From Caenorhabditis elegans (Eukaryota; Nematoda; Chromadorea; Rhabditida; Rhabditidae): a DNA stretch of 64,000 bases. Of the stretch, positions 530 to 47,336 are shown piece by piece. The position numbers were made by a program, and so were the translations under genes. The number at the start of each line of letters is the position of its first letter. Position 1 is the first letter of the stretch. Where the stretch lies: NCBI RefSeq assembly GCF_000002985.6, contig NC_003284.9:3038001-3102000 (forward strand), read 5' to 3'. The notes under the pieces were generated by a model. The model searched no databases and was not told the origin of the DNA. It saw only the letters and a program-made list of their open reading frames with translations.

Positions 530-3500
530 ATTGTTCGTAATTTCAGTATTAAGAGAAACAGTCGAACGACTTGTTGACTGATTCAGAGATCTCTCGATTG
601 CTTCAGCCATTGCATCGAGGACCTCCGTTCCAAAACTATGCCACGCGCCCGCCTCGAGCCTCATTTCCTCTTTTCCAATTGTCACAACAGCGCGCCCACT
701 CAAAATCATGATGAACTTGTTGCTGAACTCTCCTTTTGTGAAGAGCACGGCCGGCTTAGGCTGAACGACGCCGACTTCTTTCAGACATGAGAACTGAGTG
801 GTCTCGACCTGAAATGAAAATGATGGAGGATTTCAGTAAACTAGAAAAACGAAATACCTTCTTGCAGTTTTTCCGGATTAATTTCTCGAGAATCGTTGGC
901 AAAATGTAGTTTGAACTGAAAATTTTGTGGCATGTGCTCATCACTTGAATTGTCACAGCGAGCATTTGAATGTTAATTGCACATTTTGCATGAGCAGTGT
1001 TCACTATTTGACTCATGTCATGATTCTGAAAAAAATATTTAAAAATTTTTTATTGCACAGAGTCTGAGCTATGTCATTTGCGATAAGACTGAAAGGTGGA
1101 ATAGCGCCAGTGAGGTAATTGCTTCAAAGCATGTCTATGGCACCAAAATGTCCAAATATCATAGTAAAAACATTCTAAAAAATTTATAAATTTTTTATGA
1201 TTTTTTGAAATTTGGAAAAATCTAAGTTTTTGCCACTTTTTGGAAGTGCTCGATCTAAAAAAATTACCTTCAATTTTGACGGTCTACATATGTTTTAAAT
1301 ATTACTGTAGGGATTCGATCATGTTAGAATGTTTCTATTTTCTCAAAAAGTGGCAAAAGTTTAATAATTGCCACTCTTTTCAAATTTTTTTTGCAACTTT
1401 TTACTATAATATTTGGTTATTTTGGCACTAAAGAAGTGGGTTTTAATAGGTTATTTCGGCGCTGGCGCTACTTTTCCTTTAAATAAAACTATAATAGTCT
1501 AACATAACCGAATATCATAATGAATGTAAAACTTTGTAGTTTTTTTCTAGAATTCTGAGTAAAAATTTTGGAGAATTTCTAAATCTTCAAAAAAAAATGT
1601 GGAGTAATTTTAAACATTGCAGCACGTCCAAAATTCAAGAGTGCTTGAATAAAATTAATGCATAAAATTTGAAATTTTTTCCTCGTCTTCCTAACTTCTT
1701 ATATAAGACTACCACTTTTTGACTGTAAGTTAAAATTCTAACACTTTTTGAAAAGTTTCACTACAAAATTCGGGCATTCTAACACCATCAAAGCAACTAA
1801 ACATTTTTCTACTGACGATATTTGTAAAAAATCTAACTGATTTAATATGTTTTATGTTGATATTCAGCAACAAATTCAAAATACAAGGTGTGGATAGAAT
1901 GCCAACTAGACCCATTAAAATATTCACATTTCAGTGCCAGCCTCCTAGGTTCAATTTCCTTGTTCTTAGAAATGTCATGCCCATTCGAATTTTGTGCTCC
2001 TTCTAGAATGAGTCATAAAAAATTCCGGCCTCTTTTTTTTGTTGTTTCATAGGTCACGAATTGAATTTTTAATCTATTCGGACTCTATAAAGCTTATTAC
2101 TTAATGTAGAACATATGTAGATGTAAAATTCTGGTTTTTGAAGTATTGTAGCCTTTCTTGAAAACTCTCCATGAGACAAAACAGATAAACTTATAAAAGA
2201 AGAAGATGCAAGTAAATCGGATTTTCCAAAAGACTTGATTCTATCAACTAGATTGGTTCACTATTTGGGCTGGTTGTCCAAACATTCAAACGTCGAGGTG
2301 CTACGAATGTTCGCTTTTTATGTGAAAAAAACAAGGATGAGAAACAAGCTTTTTGAAGGGATTTAAAATGAATGAAAAAGTCTGGATGACGAGATAATAA
2401 AGCTTTATACCTGGATCCGTTGCCAAGTTGATCACTCAAAAATTACTCCGATCCCAGAGATTTTATGAATATAGAAATAAACATTCCACTGGAAGTTAGA
2501 AATATCAAAGTGATAAATGCAATTAGGCAGTGGCAGTAGGTACTGTCCATCTGCCGAATCGGAGTCCGTGAGTAGGACCCGGCCATGGAAACATCTCGAA
2601 TAGAATAGCAGGACGGTTCGCGTGTCGTTCGGCCACCGCCAGATTGTCCGGGCAGCTGTAGCATTCAGACTTCTGTGAGACTACCTTCTTCTCCGTGGAG
2701 AAGAAGAAGAATCACACAAGAGAATGATGTACGACCGCGTGGCTTCAGGGGGGGAGGGCCGACCGGCTCGACCAAGGAGGAGCGAGAGAGAAAAGCCATG
2801 CAATGAGGGGGGGGGGGGCACACAACGTCTTTCGGACCGCGGGCGCACTAGGACAGATATGCCCTCGAGATATATGAACAAATTGTCGGCTTTCGATAGA
2901 TGGTGCGGCGGTGGTTGGGGGCGTCAAGATGCGGTGAGAGTTTTTTTTGGCTCCGAAATAGGCAATAAAAAGATGTGTTGGTGAGAGCGTTTTTCTTTTT
3001 GTTTTTCAAAAGCACTCAACAATTGAAGAAGGATTGAGGATGTTTTGAAGTTAGAACAAAAAAGAATTTGAATAGAAGCTAGGAAAAACTCGGAAATGAA
3101 ATGTTTTCAAACTTATTTTTCATTCGTTTAAGCGGATAAAAAATTTATTTGCCACTCACTTTCTGATCTAATTTTTCAAAGTTGTTATCAATTTTGAAGT
3201 TAAAGTCGGAACATCACCAATTGGAAAATTTTAAAACCTAGTGTTAAATGTCAGTATATCATAATAAAAATTTCAAGAAATGATGATTCGGTTCTTACTT
3301 ACCCAAATATTATGTTTTTTTTTGAAAAATTTCGTACTTGCATTTAAATTTTATGTATTTGAAGGTGGAGCAGCTCAAATGGGAAAATTGCTTTAAAACA
3401 TGTCTATGGTACCACAACGTTAAAAAAATGTCTAAAATCGTAGAAAAAAATTCAAATAAATTTTGAAAAATTTTTAGTCGACTGTCAAAAGTGGCAATTA

Positions 3501-12493: not shown

Positions 12494-15400
12494 TCACTCC
12501 ACATCACTCTCCTCCGTTTCCTCCGAGTCATTCTTCTCAAACGGCGAAGTATTCGAGCGTCCGCGTCTGCAACAATAAAATTTTTTCGATTGTTAAAAAC
12601 CATATTTTTTATGAATTTCATTTTTGATCATTGAGGTAGTTGTTAGGATTTTGATGATTTTTATTATTCTCGACGAATGTGAAAATTCAAAGTTATTATT
12701 TCGGTTTTCATGCCAGTTAGGCGCGGGTGGGGTTCGCTTCATGATATCGTTTTGTTTATATTTTTTTGTAGAAACTGAGTGTTTGTAAGGCTTAGAAAAA
12801 GCTCTACAAAAGCTCTATTGCTTACAAAAAATGTGAAATTACAATTCCTGCAAAAGATATTGATTTGAAAATTTTTCTATTATACATTCACCTTTTTTGG
12901 GATACGTTGAAATTTGGGGAAATTTATGGAAATAGCTCGTTAAGAATTTTTACAAAGTGTTATATGTAATTCCTATGTAACTGTATTATGGTTTTGTCAC
13001 AAAAATCACGGTAGCGGGCCTCGAGGCTGCGGATTTTTTATCGCAAAAAATGCGCGCTTTTGGAAACTATAGTTGTTCATATAGGTTATTTTTTATTTTG
13101 TCATTTGGTTTGTACCTGAATTCTCTAATTTTGTTTAAAAAATATTGTTATATTGAAACACAAGGAAAACGAATTTCAAAACTCGGTTGTCACAAAGCTG
13201 TGAAATTTAAATTCACAGCAAATATTGCAAAATTCTATAATATTTCAAAACTCACTTGAAAAGATTCATATCAAATCCACCAAATGCTCCTAAAGTTGGT
13301 GCACGTCTTCTGGCAGCATGCAAGTCCTCGTTCTCTTGCTCCATCTGACGCTTCTTTGCTCGTTTGGTCATCCACAGGTGGAATCCATCGTGTGCTGGTA
13401 TATCCGATTCGGTTCTTGTTCGCAATTTAATTTGCTGCAATCGAATTTTGGTAAGAAAACAAGTTATCCGGATACTCAATGAAATAACGGGGAAAAAACA
13501 ACGGAGAAAAAAACTTACGTCACTCGTGTTGCTTTCCCGCTTCTTTTCTTTATCTCTTCTGAACGAGTCACGAACAACGGCGGCAAATTTGATTCGAGTT
13601 TGGGGATGTGACGGAGGGAAAGTGCAGACCAACATTCTAAACACCGGTTCCATATCCTGAAATTTTTACGAGGAAAGTTTCGAGAAAAAAGTTGATCAAA
13701 CTTACGTGAAAAACTTTGTAACCCGGCCCCTTGTGATTAGAACTGTGAATTCTGTCCAATTGATCTTCAACAGAATTAATCATGTTAAAGAACATCTGGT
13801 ACAACTGAGCATAGATTGATGTATTCACGATAGAAATGAGTGCAAGACCCAACAGGAACGCAGCCGCCAGGAATGGAGAATACTAAAAATTTTTTAATAG
13901 GAAAAAACCAAAATAATTTATGAACCTGAATATTGTAAGGCATGACATCACCCAATCCAATTGTTGTCAAGCTGATGAATGTGAAATAAAACGCATCGAA
14001 GAAACCGATTCCTGAAAATTGAGGCAATGGTTAGATAAAAATAGAGGGCCAAATATATTAAAATATAAATATAAATATTTGTCAAATTTTTGTAAAGAGG
14101 AAAATTGTTAAACCACTATTATATTGCCAAAAAATTTTGTTTTATTTACACTGAAAATTGAGGCAATGGGTAGATAAAAATAGAGGGCCAAATATAAATA
14201 TCATTTACTATATATAAAGCGCTTATTCCGTTTGTCCATAGTTTGTAGTCTATGTAGTCTTTGTAGTCTGCGAAGTTTTAGCTTCTGGAGGGATAGTGAG
14301 TTGGGGTTAGTGTAGGGATATAGTCGGGGTACGGTAGTGGTACAATGGTGGTACGGTAGGAGTACTGTATGATTACGGTAGTTTCAGAAAAAAAATGGTT
14401 TTCAGCTCCAGAAGTCGGGGCCGCGCCGGAGGTGCGGTCCACGGCTGGTTAAAATATAAATATAAATATTTGTCAAATTTTTGTAAAGAGGAAAATTGTT
14501 AAAAACCACTATTATATTGCCAAAAAATTGTGTTTTATTTACACTTAAAATGTTCATATTTCTGAGTTATAGGAGCTAAAGTGCTTTCACAAAGAGTGTC
14601 AAAAACTGAGTAATTGCCACATTTTTGACTGTCAATAAAAAATTTTCAAAAAATTTTCAAAAGGTTTGCTGTAATATTTTATCATTTTGGCACTATAGAA
14701 GTGGTTTTTAACATTTTCTTTAACGACACACAAACTTTAAATTGTGGAAAAAAAAAATTTCCTGGAATTCCTAACTCAACTTTTATATGTACTATACTGA
14801 ACCTAAAACAAAGTAAATTTCATGTTGTTGTACGTACCCGGTTTGTTGCCTTCATTATGGTCAAACATTTTTATAGTAAGTGTGCAAATCAAAATGTATG
14901 CCAGTACAAGAAACAGTGCAAGCCACATTGGAAGCAATATTTCGTTCTTCTTACGGTTAACAGGCTGCTTCCGAAGTTTCCTAAAAATCAGTAAACTTGA
15001 AAAAAAACTTAAAAATTCCATTCACTTGTATTTCAGAAGAAGAAATATGTAGCCATTTGTCAATATCTTCTGAAACCATTCACCAATGTCACCAAGCACT
15101 ACTAGCATAATGGGCAGGCCAATCGACGCATAAATCATGGATAATGTTCTTCCCCATACTGTTTGACAAGATATTGTACCATAACCAATTGTTGAGAATA
15201 AAGTCATTGAGTAGAAGGTTGCCGATGAAAAGTACCACATCAAATGCATATCTAAATTTTCAGCTTTGTGCCATACACTTCCATGAAATCTTCCTTCTGC
15301 CTCTAACATTGTTTTGTAATATCTCTAAAAAACAACGTTCTTGAATTAATATTAACTAGTTAAATCTTACTTTTATAAGTTTTGCCAACTTGTTAACCCG

Positions 15401-25705: not shown

Positions 25706-27361
<1,656 letters not shown>

Positions 27362-30873: not shown

Positions 30874-32307
30874 TTATTCATCCTCATCTGATTCTTTTTT
30901 AGAAACAGATGCATTTTTTACAGAATCAGGAGATACTGATGGTGATTCTTTTGGGGAACTGATATCATCTTTTACGTTTTGCGATGCTAGAAATTGCAGT
31001 AGAGAATTTTGAGAGTTGCTAGCAGGAATCATTGAAGAAGTTGGGACGACTAATGAATTGAATACAGGGCGATTATTAGAAGCTCCAAACATTGAAGTGT
31101 TCTGTGATAAGTAGTTTGCCCAATATGGATTTGTTCTTAGAAGTTGTTGAACGGCGGCCATATTTCCAGCATCGTGAAGAAGATCCATACCAACAGAGGC
31201 TTGTCGTTTCCATTTGGTTCTGAAAGTACCGTGAACATTTTTTTTCATTTCAAGCACTTTTTTTCTCAAATTTTTTGCGCCTCCCAGGGTAGCAGCTCCA
31301 ATCTCAAAAATTGGATAATGACAGTGGAGCCGTTTCCCGTGGGGTGGTTGAAAGGAGTGGGGGAGGGCGCGGAAAAAAGATGACACTACTAAATAAAATT
31401 GGTGGGCGCACGCAAAGAAATTGAGGAGGGGTGAGAGCTTTGATTAAGATAAATTTCGATGGGGGTGAAGCTTCTCGCTAATGCACTACAATTAACACAA
31501 AGTGGCGTGTTTAGACTCAATTCTCGCCCAACTGCTGGCGCAAAGAGCCACACGTTGTTGTTTTTCGAGAAAAGAAAAAAAGTTTGCCTAATTAAGGAAT
31601 ATAGCCGACCAACCTTCTATTTTGATACCATGTCTTTACTTGAGTATCTGTTAGCCCCATTCGATGAGCCAGCTCCATCCTATCTTGAACAGACAAGTAC
31701 TTCTGCTTCTCAAAGGTGTTTTCTAGCTCTTGAAGTTGTTTGTCGGTGAAGATAGTTCTCGCCTTCCGAGCCTTTTTTGATCCCACGCATGTCGGACTCT
31801 CGTTCACAGATCTTTCGGTATTCGGGCTCCCAATTCTAGGGGATGATGGCGATTCCGAGGAATTAATGGAGGTAGGAGATGGATCTACAATAACAAATAA
31901 ATAAAGAAAACTGTTTGTATAGGTAAGAGGAGAACAAAGGATCATAATTGGTTGACCTATTACTATTACAGATTACCGTCCATGTGACTACTGGAGCGTT
32001 AATCCGTTAAATATCATTTTTCAGGTTAGTTGTACATTCAACATTCTCATGGAAGTCTATGTAGATTAAAGTGTTAGAGATGGTTGAACGAACATACAAT
32101 AAATGCAATAACTTTAGGAAAATGGTGGCAAAATGGATTACCTGGTTCGTTGGTTGAGTGTGAAGTTGGATCAAGCAGATCAGAAATGCGAAAAGAGCTG
32201 TTTAAGTTTATCTTCGCGCCACCGGAAGAACTCTGAGCAGCAAGTTGGTTGGTGGGGTCTAGAAAGAATGCAGGAATCAGAAACTGACGGAGATCCAACA
32301 TTGACAT
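30874..32307 (-). CDS. ceh-31: CEH-31, BarH-class homeodomain transcription factor
   Basis: Exons 32142-32307, 31614-31884 and 30874-31219 give 260 aa. It is colinear with CEH-30: the same start block ([18 protein letters not shown] against [18 protein letters not shown]), an FIL motif FRISDLL, a nearly identical homeodomain with Tyr49 ([15 protein letters not shown]), the post-homeodomain MDLL...YWANYL block, and an acidic Ser-rich tail ending KKESDEDE. Both introns fall at the same codons and phases as in ceh-30, so the pair arose by an inverted tandem duplication. It likely acts as a neuronal repressor with partly redundant targets. Intron 2 carries a TRA-1-like word. The Helitron lies 2.7 kb upstream. 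The name is by elimination against ceh-30. Confidence 0.9.
31332..31349 (+). promoter_or_regulatory. TRA-1-like word in ceh-31 intron 2
   Basis: GTTTC, four bases, then GGGGTGGTT: the spacing of the TRA-1 consensus TTTTCnnnnTGGGTGGTC is exact, with 4/5 and 7/9 matches. It lies antisense to ceh-31, in the intron homologous to the one carrying the TRA-1 site of ceh-30. Weaker than that site at the core. Confidence 0.4.
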
Positions 32308-34975: not shown

Positions 34976-35361
34976 CCAGCCGATAACCGCGCCTCCGGCG
35001 CGGCCAACGACTGGCGGAGTTTAAAATGTATAACAAATAGATGTCCTTTTAATCATTCAAAAATGCCTCATTAAAAAAAGTTGAAACTTCATCGATTAAA
35101 TCGCATTTTCTCCTTCCATGGTATACGATTCAGAAAATTCAAAGAGACAGTTAGAATGTTCTGATTTTTCTACTAACACATTATCATTATCAGGCTTTCG
35201 AAAAAATTCCACAGAGTTACAGTTTTTTTAATAAGTTAATAACTTTCCTTAACTGGAGAAGTCTGAATAATTAACTACTAAGTTCTTTGAATATAGATGT
35301 AACGAAACAAATAAAAACTCCTACAGTTATAGGAGGTTGTAGAGCATTTCAGAACTTTTTT

Positions 35362-35414
35362 GAATTTTCCAGATGATTCTAGAACAGTCTAGAATTTTCT
35401 TGAAACTTCCAGAA
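35362..35414 (+). promoter_or_regulatory. phased heat-shock-element array 1 (11 pentamers)
   Basis: Alternating GAA and TTC triplets recur exactly every 5 bp (GAA, TTC, GAT, TTC, GAA, GTC, GAA, TTC, GAA, TTC, GAA); nine of eleven are perfect. HSF-1 trimers bind three or more alternating nGAAn/nTTCn units, so this is far beyond a minimal site. C. elegans Helitrons have been reported to disperse HSF-1 sites. Confidence 0.8.
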
Positions 35415-35429
35415 GGTGCTGAAACAAAA

Positions 35430-37479
35430 AATTTGATTCCAGAACAAAAATTTGGATTTCCCGCCAAATGTTTTCCTCAGAAAATTTGAATTTCCCGCCA
35501 AAATCTTTTTTCTCAGAAAATCTGAATTTCCCGCAAAAATTTTTTTTCCTAGAAAATTTGAATTCCCGCCAAAATTTTTCTCAGAAAATTTGAATTCCCG
35601 CCAAAATTTTTCAAAGAAAATTTGAATTACCGCCAAAATTTCTTTTCTCATAAATTTTGAAGTTCCCGCCCATATTTTTAAGGGTCTCACCACGATGGGT
35701 CTCGCCAGTTCCAGGTGGTACTTAAGCTAACAAAAAGTTTCTCAGAAAATTTGAATTTCCAGTCAAAAATTTTTTTCTCAGAAAATTTGAATTTCCCGGC
35801 AAAATGTTTTTCACTGAAAATTTGAAATTCCCGCCAAAATGTTTTTCACTGAAAATTTGAATTTCCCGCCAAAATTTTTTTCACTGAAAATTTGAAATTC
35901 CCGCCAAAAATTTTTTCACTGAAAATTTGAATTTCCCGCCAAAAATTTTTTCACTGAAAATTTGAATTTCCCGCCAAAATTTTTCTCACAGAAAATTCGA
36001 ATTTCCCGCCAAAATGTTTTTCACTGAAAATTTGAATTTCCAGTCAAAAATTTTTTTCTCAGAAAATTTGAATTTCCCGGCAAAATGTTTTTCACTGAAA
36101 ATTTGAATTTCCAGTCAAAAATTTTTTTCTCAGAAAATTTGAATTTCCCGGCAAAATTTTTTTCACTGAAATTTGAATTTCCCGCCAAAATTTTTCACTG
36201 AAAATTTGAATTTCCCGCCAAAATGTTTTTCACTGAAAATTTGAATTTCCCCCCAAAATTTTTCTCACAGAAAATTTGTTTTTCACTGAAAATTTGAATT
36301 TCCAGTCAAAAATTTTTTTCTCAGAAAATTTGAATTTCCCGGCAAAATGTTTTTCACTGAAAATTTGAATTTCCAGTCAAAAATTTTTTTCTCAGAAAAT
36401 TTGAATTTCCCGGCAAAATTTTTTTCACTGAAATTTGAATTTCCCGCCAAAATTTTTCACTGAAAATTTGAATTTCCCGCCAAAATGTTTTTCACTGAAA
36501 ATTTGAATTTCCCCCCAAAATTTTTCTCACAGAAAATTTGTTTTTCACTGAAAATTTGAATTTCCAGTCAAAAATTTTTTTCTCAGAAAATTTGAATTTC
36601 CCGGCAAAATGTTTTTCACTGAAAATTTGAATTTCCAGTCAAAAATTTTTTTCTCAGAAAATTTGAATTTCCCGGCAAAATTTTTTTCACTGAAATTTGA
36701 ATTTCCCGCCAAAATTTTTCACTGAAAATTTGAATTTCCCGCCAAAATGTTTTTCACTGAAAATTTGAATTTCCCCCCAAAATTTTTCTCACAGAAAATT
36801 TGTTTTTCACTGAAAATTTGAATTTCCAGTCAAAAATTTTTTTCTCAGAAAATTTGAATTTCCCGGCAAAATGTTTTTCACTGAAATTTGAATTTCCCGC
36901 CAAAATTTTTCACTGAAAATTTGAATTTCCCGCCAAAATGTTTTTCACTGAAAATTTGAATTTCCCCCCAAAATTTTTCTCACAGAAAATTTGTTTTTCA
37001 CTGAAAATTTGAATTTCCCGCCAAAAATTTTTTCACTGAAAATTTGAATTTCCCGCCAAAATTTTTTCACTGAACATTTGAATTTCCCGCCAAAAATTTT
37101 TTCACTGAAAATTTGAATTTCCCGCCAAAAATTTTTTCACTGAAAATTTGAATTTCCCGCCAAAATTTTTTCACTGAAAATTTGAATTTCCCGCCAAAAT
37201 TTTTCTCACAGAAAATTTGAATTTCCCGCCAAAATTTTTTCACTAAAAATTTGAATTTCCCCCCAAAATTTTTCTCATAGAAAATTTGAATTTCCCGCCA
37301 AAAATTTTTTCACTGAAAATTTGAATTTCCCGCCAAAATTTTTTCACTGAAAATTTGAATTTCCCGCTAAAAATTTTTTTCACTGAAATTTGAATTTCCC
37401 GCCAAAATTTTTCACTGAAAATTTGAATTTCCCGCCAAAATGTTTTTCACTGAAAATTTGAATTTCCCGCCAAAAATTT
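35430..37479. repeat. about 33-bp minisatellite with E2F-like core
   Basis: About 2 kb of degenerate units of the form TTCACTGAAAATTTGAAT followed by TTCCCGCCAAAAT; variants end CCAGTC, CCCGGC or CCCCCC in place of CCCGCC. About 25 units contain TTTCCCGCCAAAA, identical to a high-affinity E2F/DP consensus. Between about 36010 and 37000 units are ordered into a higher-order block of about 265 bp repeated roughly three and a half times, showing recent unequal exchange or slippage. Confidence 0.85.
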
Positions 37480-37614
37480 GGGTCTCACCACGATGGGTCT
37501 CACCACGATTGGTCTCACCACGATGGGTCTCACCGCGATGGGTCTCACCACGATGGGTCTCACCACGATGGGTCTCACCACGATGGGTTTCACCACGATG
37601 GGTCTCGTTACGAA
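37480..37614. repeat. nine tandem 15-bp repeats
   Basis: GGGTCTCACCACGAT repeats nine times with single-base changes. Single related copies occur at about 35682-35705 and 28047. The period is a multiple of three, so all frames read as short peptide repeats; these are not genes. Confidence 0.9.
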
Positions 37615-37626
37615 CATTTTTAAATT

Positions 37627-37689
37627 TTCTCGAATTTTCCAGAAGGTTCTAGAACATTCCAGAATTTTCTCGAGCTTTCCAGACGATTC
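37627..37689 (+). promoter_or_regulatory. phased heat-shock-element array 2 (13 pentamers)
   Basis: TTC and GAA alternate exactly every 5 bp for 63 bp; the first nine triplets are perfect (TTC GAA TTC GAA TTC GAA TTC GAA TTC), followed by GAG, TTC, GAC, TTC. It shares sequence with array 1 (TTCTAGAACA and TTCCAGAAGG), so one array is a duplicate of the other. It is the strongest HSF-1 site visible in the window. Confidence 0.85.
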
Positions 37690-37716
37690 TATATAGAACA
37701 TTTCTCGAATTTTCTG

Positions 37717-39713
37717 ATATCCCTTCAAAAGGCGAAAAGTCAATTTTTCCCAAACTACAGTAATCCTACAGTACTCCTACAGTACCACTACAGTACTACT
37801 ACAGTACCCCGACCACATCCCATCACTAACCTCAAACCAATATCCCTTCAAAAGGCGAAAAGCCAATTTTTCCCAAACTACAGTAATCCTACAGTACTCC
37901 TACAGTACCACTACAGTACTACTACAGTATCCCGACCATATTCCACTACTAACCCCAAACCTATATCTCTTCAAATGACTAAAACACAATTTTTCATAAA
38001 CTACAGTAATCCTACAGTACTCCTACAGTACCACTACAGTACTACTACAGTACCCCGACCACATCCCATCACTAACCTCAAACCAATATCTCTTCAAAAG
38101 ACAAAAACACAATTTTTCATAAACTACAGTAATCCTACCGTACTCCTACAGTACTCCTACAGTACTACTACAGTACCCCGCCCATATCCCCCTACTAACC
38201 CCAAACCTATATCTCTTCAAATGACTAAAACACAATTTTTCCTAAACTACAGTAATCCTACCGTACTCCTACAGTACTCCTACAGTACTACTACAGTACC
38301 CGGACCATATCCCACTAATAACTCCAAACCTATATATCTTCAAAAGACAAAAACTCAATTTTTCCTAAACTACAGTAATCCTACAGTACTCCTACAGTAC
38401 CTCTACAGTACTACTACAGTACCCCGACCATATCCCACTACTAACCCCAAACCTATATCTCTTCAAATGACTAAAACACAATTTTTCCTAAACTACAGTA
38501 ATCCTACCGTACTCCTACAGTACTCCTACAGTACTACTACAGTACCCGGACCATATCCCACTAATAACTCCAAACCTATATATCTTCAAAAGACAAAAAC
38601 TCAATTTTTCCTAAACTACAGTAATCCTACAGTACTCCTACAGTACCTCTACAGTACTACTACAGTACCCCGACCATATCCCACTACTAACCCCAAACCT
38701 ATATCTCTTCAAATGACTAAAACACAATTTTTCCTAAACTACAGTAATCCTACCGTACTCCTACAGTACTCCTACAGTACTACTACAGTACCCCGACCAT
38801 ATCCCACTACTAACCCCAAACCTATATCTCTTCAAATGACTAAAACACAATTTTTCCTAAACTACAGTAATCCTACCGTACTCCTACAGTACTCCTACAG
38901 TACTACTACAGTACCCGGACCATATCCCACTAATAACTCCAAACCTATATATCTTCAAAAGACAAAAACTCAATTTTTCCTAAACTACAGTAATCCTACA
39001 GTACTCCTACAGTACCTCTACAGTACTACTACAGTACCCCGACCATATCCCACTACTAACCCCAAACCTATATCTCTTCAAATGACTAAAACACAATTTT
39101 TCCTAAACTACAGTAATCCTACCGTACTCCTACAGTACTCCTACAGTACTACTACAGTACCCCGACCATATCCCACTACTAACCCCAAACCTATATCTCT
39201 TCAAATGACTAAAACACAATTTTTCCTAAACTACAGTAATCCTACCGTACTCCTACAGTACTCCTACAGTACTACTACAGTACCCCGACCATATCCCACT
39301 ACTAACCCCAAACCTATATCTCTTCAAATGACTAAAACACAATTTTTCCTAAACTACAGTAATCCTACCGTACTCCTACAGTACTCCTACAGTACTACTA
39401 CAGTACCCGGACCATATCCCACTAATAACTCCAAACCTATATATCTTCAAAAGACAAAAACTCAATTTTTCCTAAACTACAGTAATCCTACAGTACTCCT
39501 ACAGTACCTCTACAGTACTACTACAGTACCCCGACCATATCCCACTACTAACCCCAAACCTATATCTCTTCAAATGACTAAAACACAATTTTTCCTAAAC
39601 TACAGTAATCCTACCGTACTCCTACAGTACTCCTACAGTACTACTACAGTACCCCGACCATATCCCACTAATAACTCCAAACCTATATCCCTCCAACAGC
39701 CGAAAACGCCTTG
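37717..39713. repeat. 123-bp satellite, about 16 units
   Basis: The unit contains CTACAGTAATCCTACAG, then further CTACAGTA words, then CCCCGACC and CTAACCCCAAACC. Because 123 is divisible by 3 and one frame lacks stops, a 584-codon ORF (37975-39729) appears; it is a repeat artefact. Three unit types alternate in a higher-order pattern. A single reverse-complement copy sits in the small Helitron near 14285-14395. Confidence 0.9.
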
Positions 39714-39933
39714 CCTTTGTAAGCTATGACGTCACTTCTTAACAAACGGAAACTATTTTTTTATATATAGGTAATGATGCTACAGTTGGGTAGTTGTCAA
39801 ATTTAATAATTCTCGGCAACTGCCGAGTTTTGGCATTTTCGGTAATCGGCACTGTTCACAATCCAAATTTTTGGCAAATCGACATTTTCGGCAATTCCCT
39901 GATATCTATCATCACACTGGGTCTTGAAAGTCG

Positions 39934-43132: not shown

Positions 43133-46100
43133 ATGATGTTTATTCTGCAACAACTACTTCGGTTTTTTCGGCTCAAAAATTTTGAGGTACTTGTTTATTT
43201 TTTGTTTTTTTTTTGTTTCGGTGTGATTTGATTTTTTAAATTTTTTTAAAGTCAATTCTTGATAAACAAAAATTAGAATTTTTGGTGTTCTAAAATGAAG
43301 AAGCAATGATCGCAAAGTTCAAAATCAACGTAAATCCACATTTCCGGTTTTGAGCATTTTTGACTAAGCTGGCTAAGTTTGCAAGTTCATCTAGGGAATC
43401 AAACCTTAAAATATGTTTAAAGAGCTCTTCGAGCAACTGATTTGCCTACGGTGACACTAATTTTATATTCCCATTAACATGTGAAGTTGCAAAATTTTTA
43501 GATCAGTCAAACAGGCTCAATATGTTGAAAACAAAAATGTTAAAAACCACTTCTATGATGCCAAAATGGCCAAATACAATAGTACTTTCCAAACTCTCCA
43601 AAACTTTTTTGAAATTTTTTTGTTTAGAGCCAAAAAGTAGCAATTTTTACTGAAATTTTTTCAACTTCTAAATTTTATATGAAATTTAGAAAAACATTTT
43701 TTTGATTTTTTTAAACTGTAATATTTGGTCACTATGGTGCACTAGGCACTTTGAAAAAAATTTTCTCAAATTTAATCAAATCAAATCAAAATCGGGAATT
43801 TTCTGATTTTGGATAAATTTAGCTCATTTCATTAAAAACTTAGAGCCGCCGTAAAAATCTTTGACAAATTTTTTGAGCGCTCATTTTGTAATTGAGCCTT
43901 TCACTGAGAAATTAAAAACACTGCAAAAAGTTCTTAGAATCAATATCTCAGATGGAATTAATATTGCTTAAGGTTTGAATAACAAAACGCTAAAAGCTAG
44001 AAAAAAAAACGAAAATAGCAATTTTGCCTAGCATAAAATACTCCCTTTCTTTATTTTTGTGTTTTTTACACGGATCCCTGCTCGTTGGCACCCACCGAGC
44101 GCAGCGGAGTACTTTAAATGATGTGAGACTGGCAGTTTTGAGGAATCCAGAGAAGCGGATTGGCTCAGCTGGCCTTGGATACCAGCTCAATTACGTTTTG
44201 ATGTGTGGTCCTCTCATCCGGTTTGCTGATAGCTTTCTAATTTCGGATGTATCGTTTCTGCGTTCTTCATTCATCATTCGAAAAATGTGTTTTGTTCTAG
44301 TTTTTCACGTTTTCCTTAATGTTTTTTTTTCATAGCGTTTAATTGCTCTTTTTGCCTTGTTGCAAAGCATCGTAAAATTAAGCATTCATTTCTAACAACG
44401 TGCCAAGAAGTCTGAGAATGAATAAATTGCGCATTACTTATCTATCCCCCGTTCCTTTATCGTTGTTGCAAACATTCATTTGTGTATTTGCCAGGCACGT
44501 CAAATGCACAATCTACAGAGTAAAAAACAAGCATTCGAGGTTGAGGTTTTCACATTTTTATTATGTTGTTCGTCTTGAGTAATACTTCAAATTTCAGCAT
44601 GCAAAACCTTTCACACTTCATTGCTCACTTTTGATGCTCGTCCTTCTGTACTCATTTCTTGGTGGATTTATATTCGATCGCATCGAGACCAATGCACACG
44701 CCGAAATGAAACGCAATGAACGGATCAATAGAACAGCGTGTGTTTCTCAAGTAAGTCCTTTTTTGTATGTTTTGACTCATTCCTAATTAAATTGTCGCGC
44801 CACAAAAGTGTGCTACATATAATTTAATAAAAATTATGGGAATCTCTCGTTCTTTTTTTTACAGATTCTGCATTCTATTCACAGATGGAGCCATAATCAA
44901 ACACACAAAGTGCAGTACGCAGAGGATATCGCTGATTGTTTTGAGCCTGAAAAGTGAGAATAAAAATAAATGTTCACAAAACACGAAGATCTTTGGAACA
45001 GTATTGCTGTAACTACAACTATGAAGACATTAACTGAGCGCTTTAGAATTTTTCATGTTGAAAGTCCATAAGTGGAATTTTGAACAAATTTATCAAAAAA
45101 AGTTATGACGGTTCAAATTAAACCAAGAACATTTTTAAAAACAGAGTATGGTCAGTGTGTCAAAATTTCGAGGAATGTGGACTTTTTGAGTAATTTTAAA
45201 CATAGCTGCATGTTTGAACGGCAAAAATGTTTGAATAAAAACAAATTGAACGAAAATAAAGTATTAAACTCCTAGAAAATCTTTCTTTAAACTTCCAAAA
45301 TTATGATATGTCTGAGGTTTGACAACTTTCTGGCTGCCAAACGAAACATTTAGAAAAATTTTTAACTTTTTAGTTTAGTGTTTGAATATTTCAGCGCTAG
45401 AAGAGCAATTTAAGTCGTTTTTCTACTGGAGATTTTCACCTTAAAGTGCTCGTTTTCTAACAATATGCAATAATACTTTTTTTGTTAATTGGTTTGATGA
45501 GAATTCCAAAAAAAAAAAGTTTTTTGTCCAATGTTAAAGCACGAAAAAGTTAAAAAAATTTCAGAGACGAAAGAAGCGAATGGAATTTTGTAACTGCAAC
45601 GTTATATGGTTTTGGCATTGTCACAACATTAGGTACATCATGATTTATATACTTGCACCCATTTGGTTTTAAGGGTACAACAGAATTGCGCCAATAACTT
45701 ATACGGGAAGAATGTTTTGTATCGTTTATGGCATTTGTGGTATACCAGTTACAATGATCATCATTGCAAATGTTGGCCAGTACCTGAACAATTTTGCAGG
45801 AGATTCGAGACGCAAGGTCACTTGTTTTTTAATTTTTTTTTAAATTCCAAGTTCTATTTCTAGATAGAAGCCTACAGGCAGCAGAGACGAATGTCAAAAG
45901 CTTCATTGGCCGGCAAAATTTACAAAGAATCTTCAATCCAAGTCACATCGTTAGCTCTTCTATGTGTCTTCTTAATATACGTGGCAGTTGGTGCATTACT
46001 ATTGCCATTGTTAAATGGAGAACTCGACTTTTTCAACGGACTTTATTTTAATTTTTTGTGTTTAACTGCGATAGATTTTGGGCAACTGGTTCCGATTCGG

Positions 46101-47336
46101 GTTGAGCTGCTACCAATAACATTTCTGTATGTGTGCATTGGATTGGCGATTACAACAATTGCTATCAGTTAGTTTTTAAACACTTGTGAAAATTATCATC
46201 GTTTTTTGTTTCAGATATTGGTTCTGAATATATGAAAAAACTTCACTACTGGGGCAAGAAAATGAAGAATGCCGCGCAGACAAGAATTTGGTTTGGTGGA
46301 AAAACGTAATTTTATTTTTATTTTTGAAAGACCACATTAGTTGAATTATGTTAAAATTTTCAGTTTAAAAGTCAGAGACCTCCTTCATGCAGTGGGTAAG
46401 AAATGTGGCGTAGAACCAGGAATGATTGATGCATTGGATTTGGAAAATGTTGTAGAGCGGACAATTGCTATGCAGGTTTTTTTTTCAAATTTTTTTTGCT
46501 CATACAAATTTTAAAAGTAATTTTTCAGGAAGGACGGGAGCCGCCCGAGGATTTGAACGATGAGCCACCACGTGAGCCATCTCCTCGTTCAATCATTCAT
46601 TCACCGTGTTCCACAAGACCATCGAATCCTCCAATGAGCCCACCATCTCCACGAGAAGACCACCCATTTATATTCAAAATGTACTGCAAAGCCAATTTAT
46701 ATTTCTGAATCTCTCATTTTGAGTGTTCTCTTTTTTTCAGGGATGCTCCTGCTCCTCGAAGCCCATTACCATTGCCGGCATATGAATTGGATATCAAAAA
46801 GCCGATATTTCAGGCATTGTCCAATGAGTTTATGAACCAATCGGCGCAGGAGAAGTTGTTTAATGATCTCGATACTTTTCAAATTGAAATTAATACTGAG
46901 CTAGTTGAGGATCATAAATGTGAAAGTGTTATCATTATTGAACCACCAGCAACATTTGAAGACATGACTATACAACACAGTCTTTGTGTTGAAGATTATG
47001 AGAGGGAAGAAAAAGGTTATTGATTATTCGATGATTGTTTTATTATCAAATCAACAAATTTCAGTTCCGAAACGATTCCGCGAAAAGAAAGAAATGTATG
47101 GTCGAGACCCGCGTAAACTGTATGAAACTTATCAAGAGGAATGGGATAGATTGGAACGGTTATCAGATAGGAAGTAAGTTGATCAGATTGATGGACTTCA
47201 ATGACAAAACCAATTAAGGCACGGTCCGAGAAGGAAGTCAGTTTTGAACTTATCAAACTGTTCACCGGAACGAAGTGTTTCCCCATCTCCGATCAGGCAT
47301 TCTTTAACTGGGGAGGGCCACAGAAGAGATTCGTAG
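43133..47336 (+). CDS. atypical TWK-type two-pore-domain channel (TWK-2 of this window)
   Basis: Twelve exons, 555 aa: 43133-43186, 44598-44750, 44865-44953, 45565-45632, 45674-45816, 45864-46167, 46215-46305, 46364-46475, 46529-46680, 46741-47015, 47065-47173, 47219-47336. M1 is at about residues 26-43; pore helix 1 and filter at about 105-130; M2 ends VGQYL; M3 at about 195-215; then pore 2 and M4. The fold is TWK-like, but filter 1 reads TTLGYN (canonical TTIGYG) and filter 2 reads AIDFGQ (canonical TIGFGD), so K+ selectivity or conduction is doubtful. The cytosolic tail is long, with SP/PS-rich stretches and a last exon rich in SP motifs. Exon 11 ends AA|GTAAGT inside AAG TAA; retention of the 45-nt last intron would stop the protein after 517 residues. 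Identity of the twk gene is not known to me. Confidence 0.88.

Follow-up and report, generated by a model that had tools for sequence, protein, structure and literature searches.

A short, slightly decayed copy of the Helitron-borne heat-shock element satellite on the Caenorhabditis elegans X chromosome

Why do thirteen heat-shock element (HSE) pentamers stand in phase inside a Helitron on the C. elegans X chromosome, and do they serve any gene nearby? The array lies between a homeobox gene and an ion-channel gene in the window, the 64,000-nucleotide stretch of DNA analysed here. A sequence-only reading of the window had described an unusually long HSF-1-binding array within a Helitron and had proposed it as a heat-inducible enhancer for ceh-31 or for the downstream TWK gene. 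An HSE array within a Helitron and published HSF-1 binding to such elements both stand, but the unusual length is not supported and the enhancer role is disfavoured. Very probably, the array is a short, decayed copy of a 40-bp HSE satellite that was spread by Helitrons and is probably bound by HSF-1, most likely without a target gene.

The biology of a transposon spreading HSEs is important, though it is in print: the spread of HSEs by a transposon was published in 2019 and the 40-nt satellite in 2015. Garrigues and colleagues placed 11,527 of 18,766 C. elegans HSEs in Helitrons, described eight HelitronY4_CE copies that hold more than 100 HSEs and reported that HSF-1 and Pol II increase at Helitron HSEs on heat shock (Garrigues et al., 2019; PMC6927752). 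The HSF-1 binding in worm Helitrons to which the sequence-only reading had appealed is thus documented by ChIP on Helitron HSEs genome-wide. In the same report, heat-induced genes were enriched among those lying up to 2.5 kb downstream of a Helitron HSE bound by HSF-1. Heat shock likewise raises Helitron1_CE RNA, whose amount is sensitive to HSF-1 levels (PMC6765114, 2019). Subirana and colleagues had earlier described a 40-nt Helitron satellite as a multiple of AGAANNTTCT; among the Helitron-related families, it alone had relatives in the other Caenorhabditis that they studied (Subirana et al., 2015; PMC4595182). The additions made here are modest, namely the exact ends of the element, a later origin of two imperfect pentamers and a roughly neutral-looking divergence in long arrays.

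The array and its relatives in the genome

Two features make up the HSE sequence at this locus:

37627..37689 (X:3,075,627-3,075,689), no strand assigned: HSE array of 13 phased pentamers, 11 of them perfect
37702..37714, no strand assigned: three more perfect pentamers, in 5-bp register but with the order flipped relative to the main array

From 37627 to 37689, TTC and GAA triplets alternate strictly every 5 bp. All thirteen are in phase and units 1 to 9 are perfect, as the earlier reading had stated; units 10 (GAG) and 12 (GAC) are each one base off GAA. The array thus has the make-up of an HSE, that is, at least three alternating nGAAn/nTTCn pentamers in 5-bp phase. The phase is lost after 37689, where 4+1 bases split off the triplets at 37702-37714; these bases are absent in 8 of 12 distant copies. 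The 63 bp of the array correspond to some 1.6 repeats of a 40-bp unit that holds eight pentamers; the first and second copies match at 21 of 25 bases at lag 40, which is the period of the Helitron HSE satellite. The array also contains the decamer AGAAGGTTCT at 37641-37650.

Shuffled versions of the window gave longest perfect runs of three pentamers (30 order-1 Markov shuffles) and four (30 order-2 Markov shuffles). Estimates from the product of base frequencies were 6e-10 nine-pentamer runs per 64 kb and 0.0014 seven-pentamer runs in the whole genome. A search of the genome (100,286,401 bases in seven contigs) for seven perfect pentamers returned 2,038 placements (1,038 forward and 1,000 reverse), which overlap within arrays and so are not a count of loci; the reversed control pattern had no placement in the genome. 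With the array and the abundance of seven-pentamer runs so far above the shuffles and frequency estimates, chance is not the explanation.

The length of the array, presented by the sequence-only reading as exceptional, proved ordinary for this genome. The longest perfect run among the loci retrieved was 37 pentamers (X:443 kb), and perfect runs of more than nine pentamers occurred in 16 of 20 retrieved loci, which were picked for many matches and are not a random sample. When single units were allowed a one-base miss, a chain of 284 phased pentamers, 242 of them perfect, extended over about 1.4 kb of contig C1 (13.6139-13.6153 Mb; locus L069), its best lag among those tried being 160. The array is therefore a short, slightly decayed copy of an abundant repeat that has already been described.

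Its closest published counterparts are the Hac-HSEs of HelitronY4_CE, HelitronY1_CE, HelitronY1A_CE, Helitron2_CE and Helitron1_CE (PMC6927752), which are likewise HSE clusters in C. elegans Helitrons and whose extended motifs the authors interpreted as tandem HSEs that overlap. Compared with the Hac-HSEs as described there, the array differs in nothing of kind, being a short copy (13 pentamers) that has no recognised coding start within 2.5 kb. By unit length and decamer it resembles Cele_Fam_7_40 (PMC4595182), with which it shares the 40-bp period and the multiples of AGAANNTTCT, although it holds only 1.6 units.

The Helitron that carries the array

The array lies within a larger element, with these features:

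34976..39777 (X:3,072,976-3,077,777), minus strand: non-autonomous Helitron of 4,802 bp, with its 5' end at 39777 (A before TC) and its 3' end at 34976 (CTGG before T), delimited by copy boundaries
34976..35014, minus strand: hairpin at the 3' terminus, ending in CTGG and folding as DNA at -15.4 kcal/mol (z -3.11; none of 200 shuffles did as well)
37717..39696, no strand assigned: 123-bp tandem repeat, 16 copies, with an 11-bp CTACAGTACTC-like repeat inside each copy
37479..37606, no strand assigned: 15-bp tandem repeat TGGGTCTCACCACGA, 8.5 copies
35738..37475, no strand assigned: 35-bp tandem repeat, about 50 copies, with further 35-bp repeats at 35447-35679
35342..35420, no strand assigned: second, degenerate HSE array, 77% alike to 37612-37690 and including five perfect pentamers (35392-35414)

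Helitrons begin with TC after a target A and end with CTRR before a T, just preceded by a GC-rich hairpin. On the minus strand, the termini of the element read A followed by TCATTACC and, at the other end, ATCGGCTGG followed by T, in agreement with this signature. The right boundary is sharp: 32 of 40 copies stop exactly at 39778, five run 1 base and three 4-6 bases beyond it, and the flanks that follow ...GGTAATGAT differ between copies. In a right-end comparison of 25 rows, all ten copies that reach the end (nine alignments stop there and one runs 1 base past) have T after GGTAATGA, while the other 15 rows stop inside the element or match internal repeats. At the left end, the 3' terminus is CTGG before T at 34976, and A precedes CCAG on the plus strand (...ACCAGC) in 9 of 9 copies reaching it; the hairpin is the one listed above. 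The earlier placement of the array inside a Helitron is thus upheld by tested termini and a 3' hairpin.

No match to the Rep domain (PF14214, Helitron_like_N) was found in the element; the 13 matches in the genome all lie elsewhere, 12 of them on contig C2 (at six places) and one at X 16.9 Mb. The open frames of the element, including one of 701 aa across the 123-bp repeats, look repeat-derived. With no Rep-domain match and with frames that look repeat-like, the element is taken to be non-autonomous. From its own 5' end it carries the 123-bp repeats, the HSE array, the 15-bp and 35-bp repeats, the degenerate HSE array and the 3' terminal region. In unit length, its repeats of 11, 15, 35 and 40 bp resemble the 11-, 15-, 34- and 40-nt families that occur together in HelitronY4_CE on chromosome I (PMC4595182). 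Within the 35-bp repeats there is a 262-bp higher-order unit (36015-36838); three 300-bp stretches, beginning at 36015, 36277 and 36539, show 100% identity, and this part is a recent local expansion.

A further comparison is offered by the autonomous Helitron1_CE elements of chromosome II, of which six complete copies carry 15-, 32- and 31-nt satellites (PMC9918286). One autonomous copy, L089 on contig C2, was seen over 4 kb. From its 5' end it has 15-bp repeats, 32-bp repeats, HSE runs of 5, 5, 4, 5 and 3 pentamers, and then the gene, whose position is given in Table 2 of PMC9918286. Over 26 bp of 5' terminus, L089 and the window element match at 96%, and both have 15-bp and 32/35-bp repeats in the same order with an HSE cluster beyond. 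The window element differs in lacking a Rep-domain match, in its 123-bp repeat and in the extra HSE array located 5' of its 15-bp repeats; within the stretch of L089 seen, no HSE run of at least three pentamers lies 5' of the 15-bp repeats. The degenerate array at 35342-35420 seems to lie where the autonomous Helitron has its HSE cluster, after the 32-nt repeats and before the transposase gene. As this second array would then stand in the promoter-HSE position of the autonomous element, the array at 37627-37689 is probably an addition. At L089:3460-3525 (C2 near 1.9698 Mb), the 5' end of the autonomous Helitron (...AAGTAATGA on the plus strand, ending at 3485) directly abuts a CCAGCCGTT... inverted repeat that resembles a second Helitron's 3' end, an arrangement like that of a head-to-tail insertion.

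Divergence of HSE cores and spacers

Homologous copies of the array were drawn from 30 loci, of which 20 were used (the window itself and nine tandem neighbours of included loci were dropped, and both members of a pair 3.6 kb apart on C2 were retained). Against the window, these 20 copies differ in 4.7% of comparisons at core columns and in 7.0% at spacer columns (column permutation p 0.26). Close copies show 3 differences in 309 core and 3 in 204 spacer comparisons, while distant copies show 34 in 468 and 30 in 292. Units 10 and 12 read GAA in all 12 distant copies and GAG and GAC in all eight close ones; the two imperfect units are thus most simply explained, from these alignments, as later changes within a subfamily. 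Without them the core difference falls from 4.7% to 2.0%, to be set beside the 7.0% for spacers, from which matching subfamily sites were not removed.

Long arrays were compared with themselves at lags of 10-200 in tens, and 24 of the 26 loci entered gave counts. The best lag was 40 in 20 loci and 160 in the remaining 4. One period apart, cores mismatch at 569 of 5,796 sites (9.8%) and spacers at 452 of 3,864 (11.7%), with a pooled Fisher p of 0.004 for sites that are not independent. A single locus, L070, weighs heavily in this pooled figure (84/1,008 core and 169/672 spacer), while L069 at lag 160 has more mismatches in cores (31/756) than in spacers (5/504). The core was the less diverged part in 12 of the 24 loci and the more diverged part in the other 12, and this even split shows no consistent selection. 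Weak constraint on the cores is possible, given the slightly lower pooled core mismatch; overall, the divergence in long arrays looks roughly neutral, a weak argument against continuing selection on HSE cores in the scattered copies.

The same comparisons bear on two other explanations of the array. It is very unlikely that the phasing is a by-product of slippage in a 10- or 20-bp minisatellite unrelated to HSF-1. The arrays are indeed tandem repeats, with the best lags given above, and at a distance of one period cores and spacers have diverged to about the same extent, as slippage might lead one to expect. However, in pentamer pairs 10 bp apart spacer mismatch reaches 78%, near the 75% that unrelated bases would give, and core mismatch 12%, a figure lowered by construction because blocks were picked for high core score. 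A recent duplication of decamers would have kept the spacers alike, and simple-decamer slippage was set aside because the spacers between neighbouring pentamer pairs are unrelated. Published ChIP, moreover, places HSF-1 on Helitron HSEs, for the families as a whole. We also think it quite unlikely that the array serves the Helitron in cis, for example through heat-opened chromatin at the 5' part of non-autonomous copies that would give Rep access. Loci away from Rep-domain matches do hold far longer arrays than the autonomous L089, with its runs of three to five, but that comparison is with one autonomous copy over 4 kb, and core divergence in the long arrays is not consistently below that of the spacers.

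Neighbouring genes and the possible role of the array

The genes proposed as targets of the array are represented in the window by the following frames:

31595..32307, minus strand: homeobox gene, with a homeodomain frame at 31595-31972 and the ATG at 32307 in a separate frame
45864..46169, plus strand: ion-channel frame (PF07885, E 4e-7), part of a neighbouring K2P/TWK-like gene

Their domains agree with the names ceh-31 and TWK given by the sequence-only reading. Both genes proposed as targets are real neighbours. Enhancer activity on the homeobox or the K2P channel gene is nevertheless unlikely. Cooperativity of HSF-1 binding is increased on tetrameric and pentameric HSEs (Schmauder et al., 2022; PMC9148306), Helitron HSEs no more than 2.5 kb upstream have been linked to heat-induced genes (PMC6927752), and an effect over a longer range is conceivable. 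On the other side, the distance from the array is 5,320 bp to the homeobox ATG and 8,175 bp to the first channel frame recognised by Pfam, although the true transcription starts could be nearer; the second array (35392), too, is still some 3.1 kb away from that ATG. With both genes beyond the 2.5 kb of the published enrichment, they are weak candidates, and neither 'ceh-31' nor 'twk' occurs in the main text of PMC6927752. The enhancer role is thus disfavoured.

A broader role has also been considered, in which HSE arrays of non-autonomous Helitrons, which can number hundreds of pentamers, would titrate HSF-1 under heat shock or open gene-less copies in cis for mobilisation in trans. This is likewise quite improbable. 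The words 'decoy', 'sponge', 'sink' and 'satellite' do not occur in the main text of PMC6927752, and no title on Helitron arrays as HSF-1 sinks was found among the literature matches listed. If titration did take place, the array at 37.6 kb would be one small site of a genome-wide HSF-1 sink.

The reading preferred here, that of a passively spread satellite, would run as follows. Ancestrally, HSEs would have stood at the promoter of the Rep-helicase gene of an autonomous Helitron, where heat, acting through HSF-1 trimers, would have switched on the transposase. A unit of eight pentamers would have been shaped as HSEs early and then amplified in tandem as a satellite. The 40-bp satellite would have spread passively in non-autonomous Helitrons, presumably mobilised in trans, and would now be decaying with little visible constraint. 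In the window, HSF-1 is likely to bind the array on heat shock, probably cooperatively and with three to four trimers' worth of sites, but the array most likely lacks a physiological target gene.

The homeobox gene near the array has a partner in the window: the homeobox genes at 25706-26476 (plus strand) and 31595-32307 (minus strand) are convergent, have similar N-termini and form an apparent duplicate pair. A further ion-channel frame (15025-15324, minus strand; PF07885, E 1.4e-17) lies on the other side of this pair, which is therefore flanked by two channel genes.
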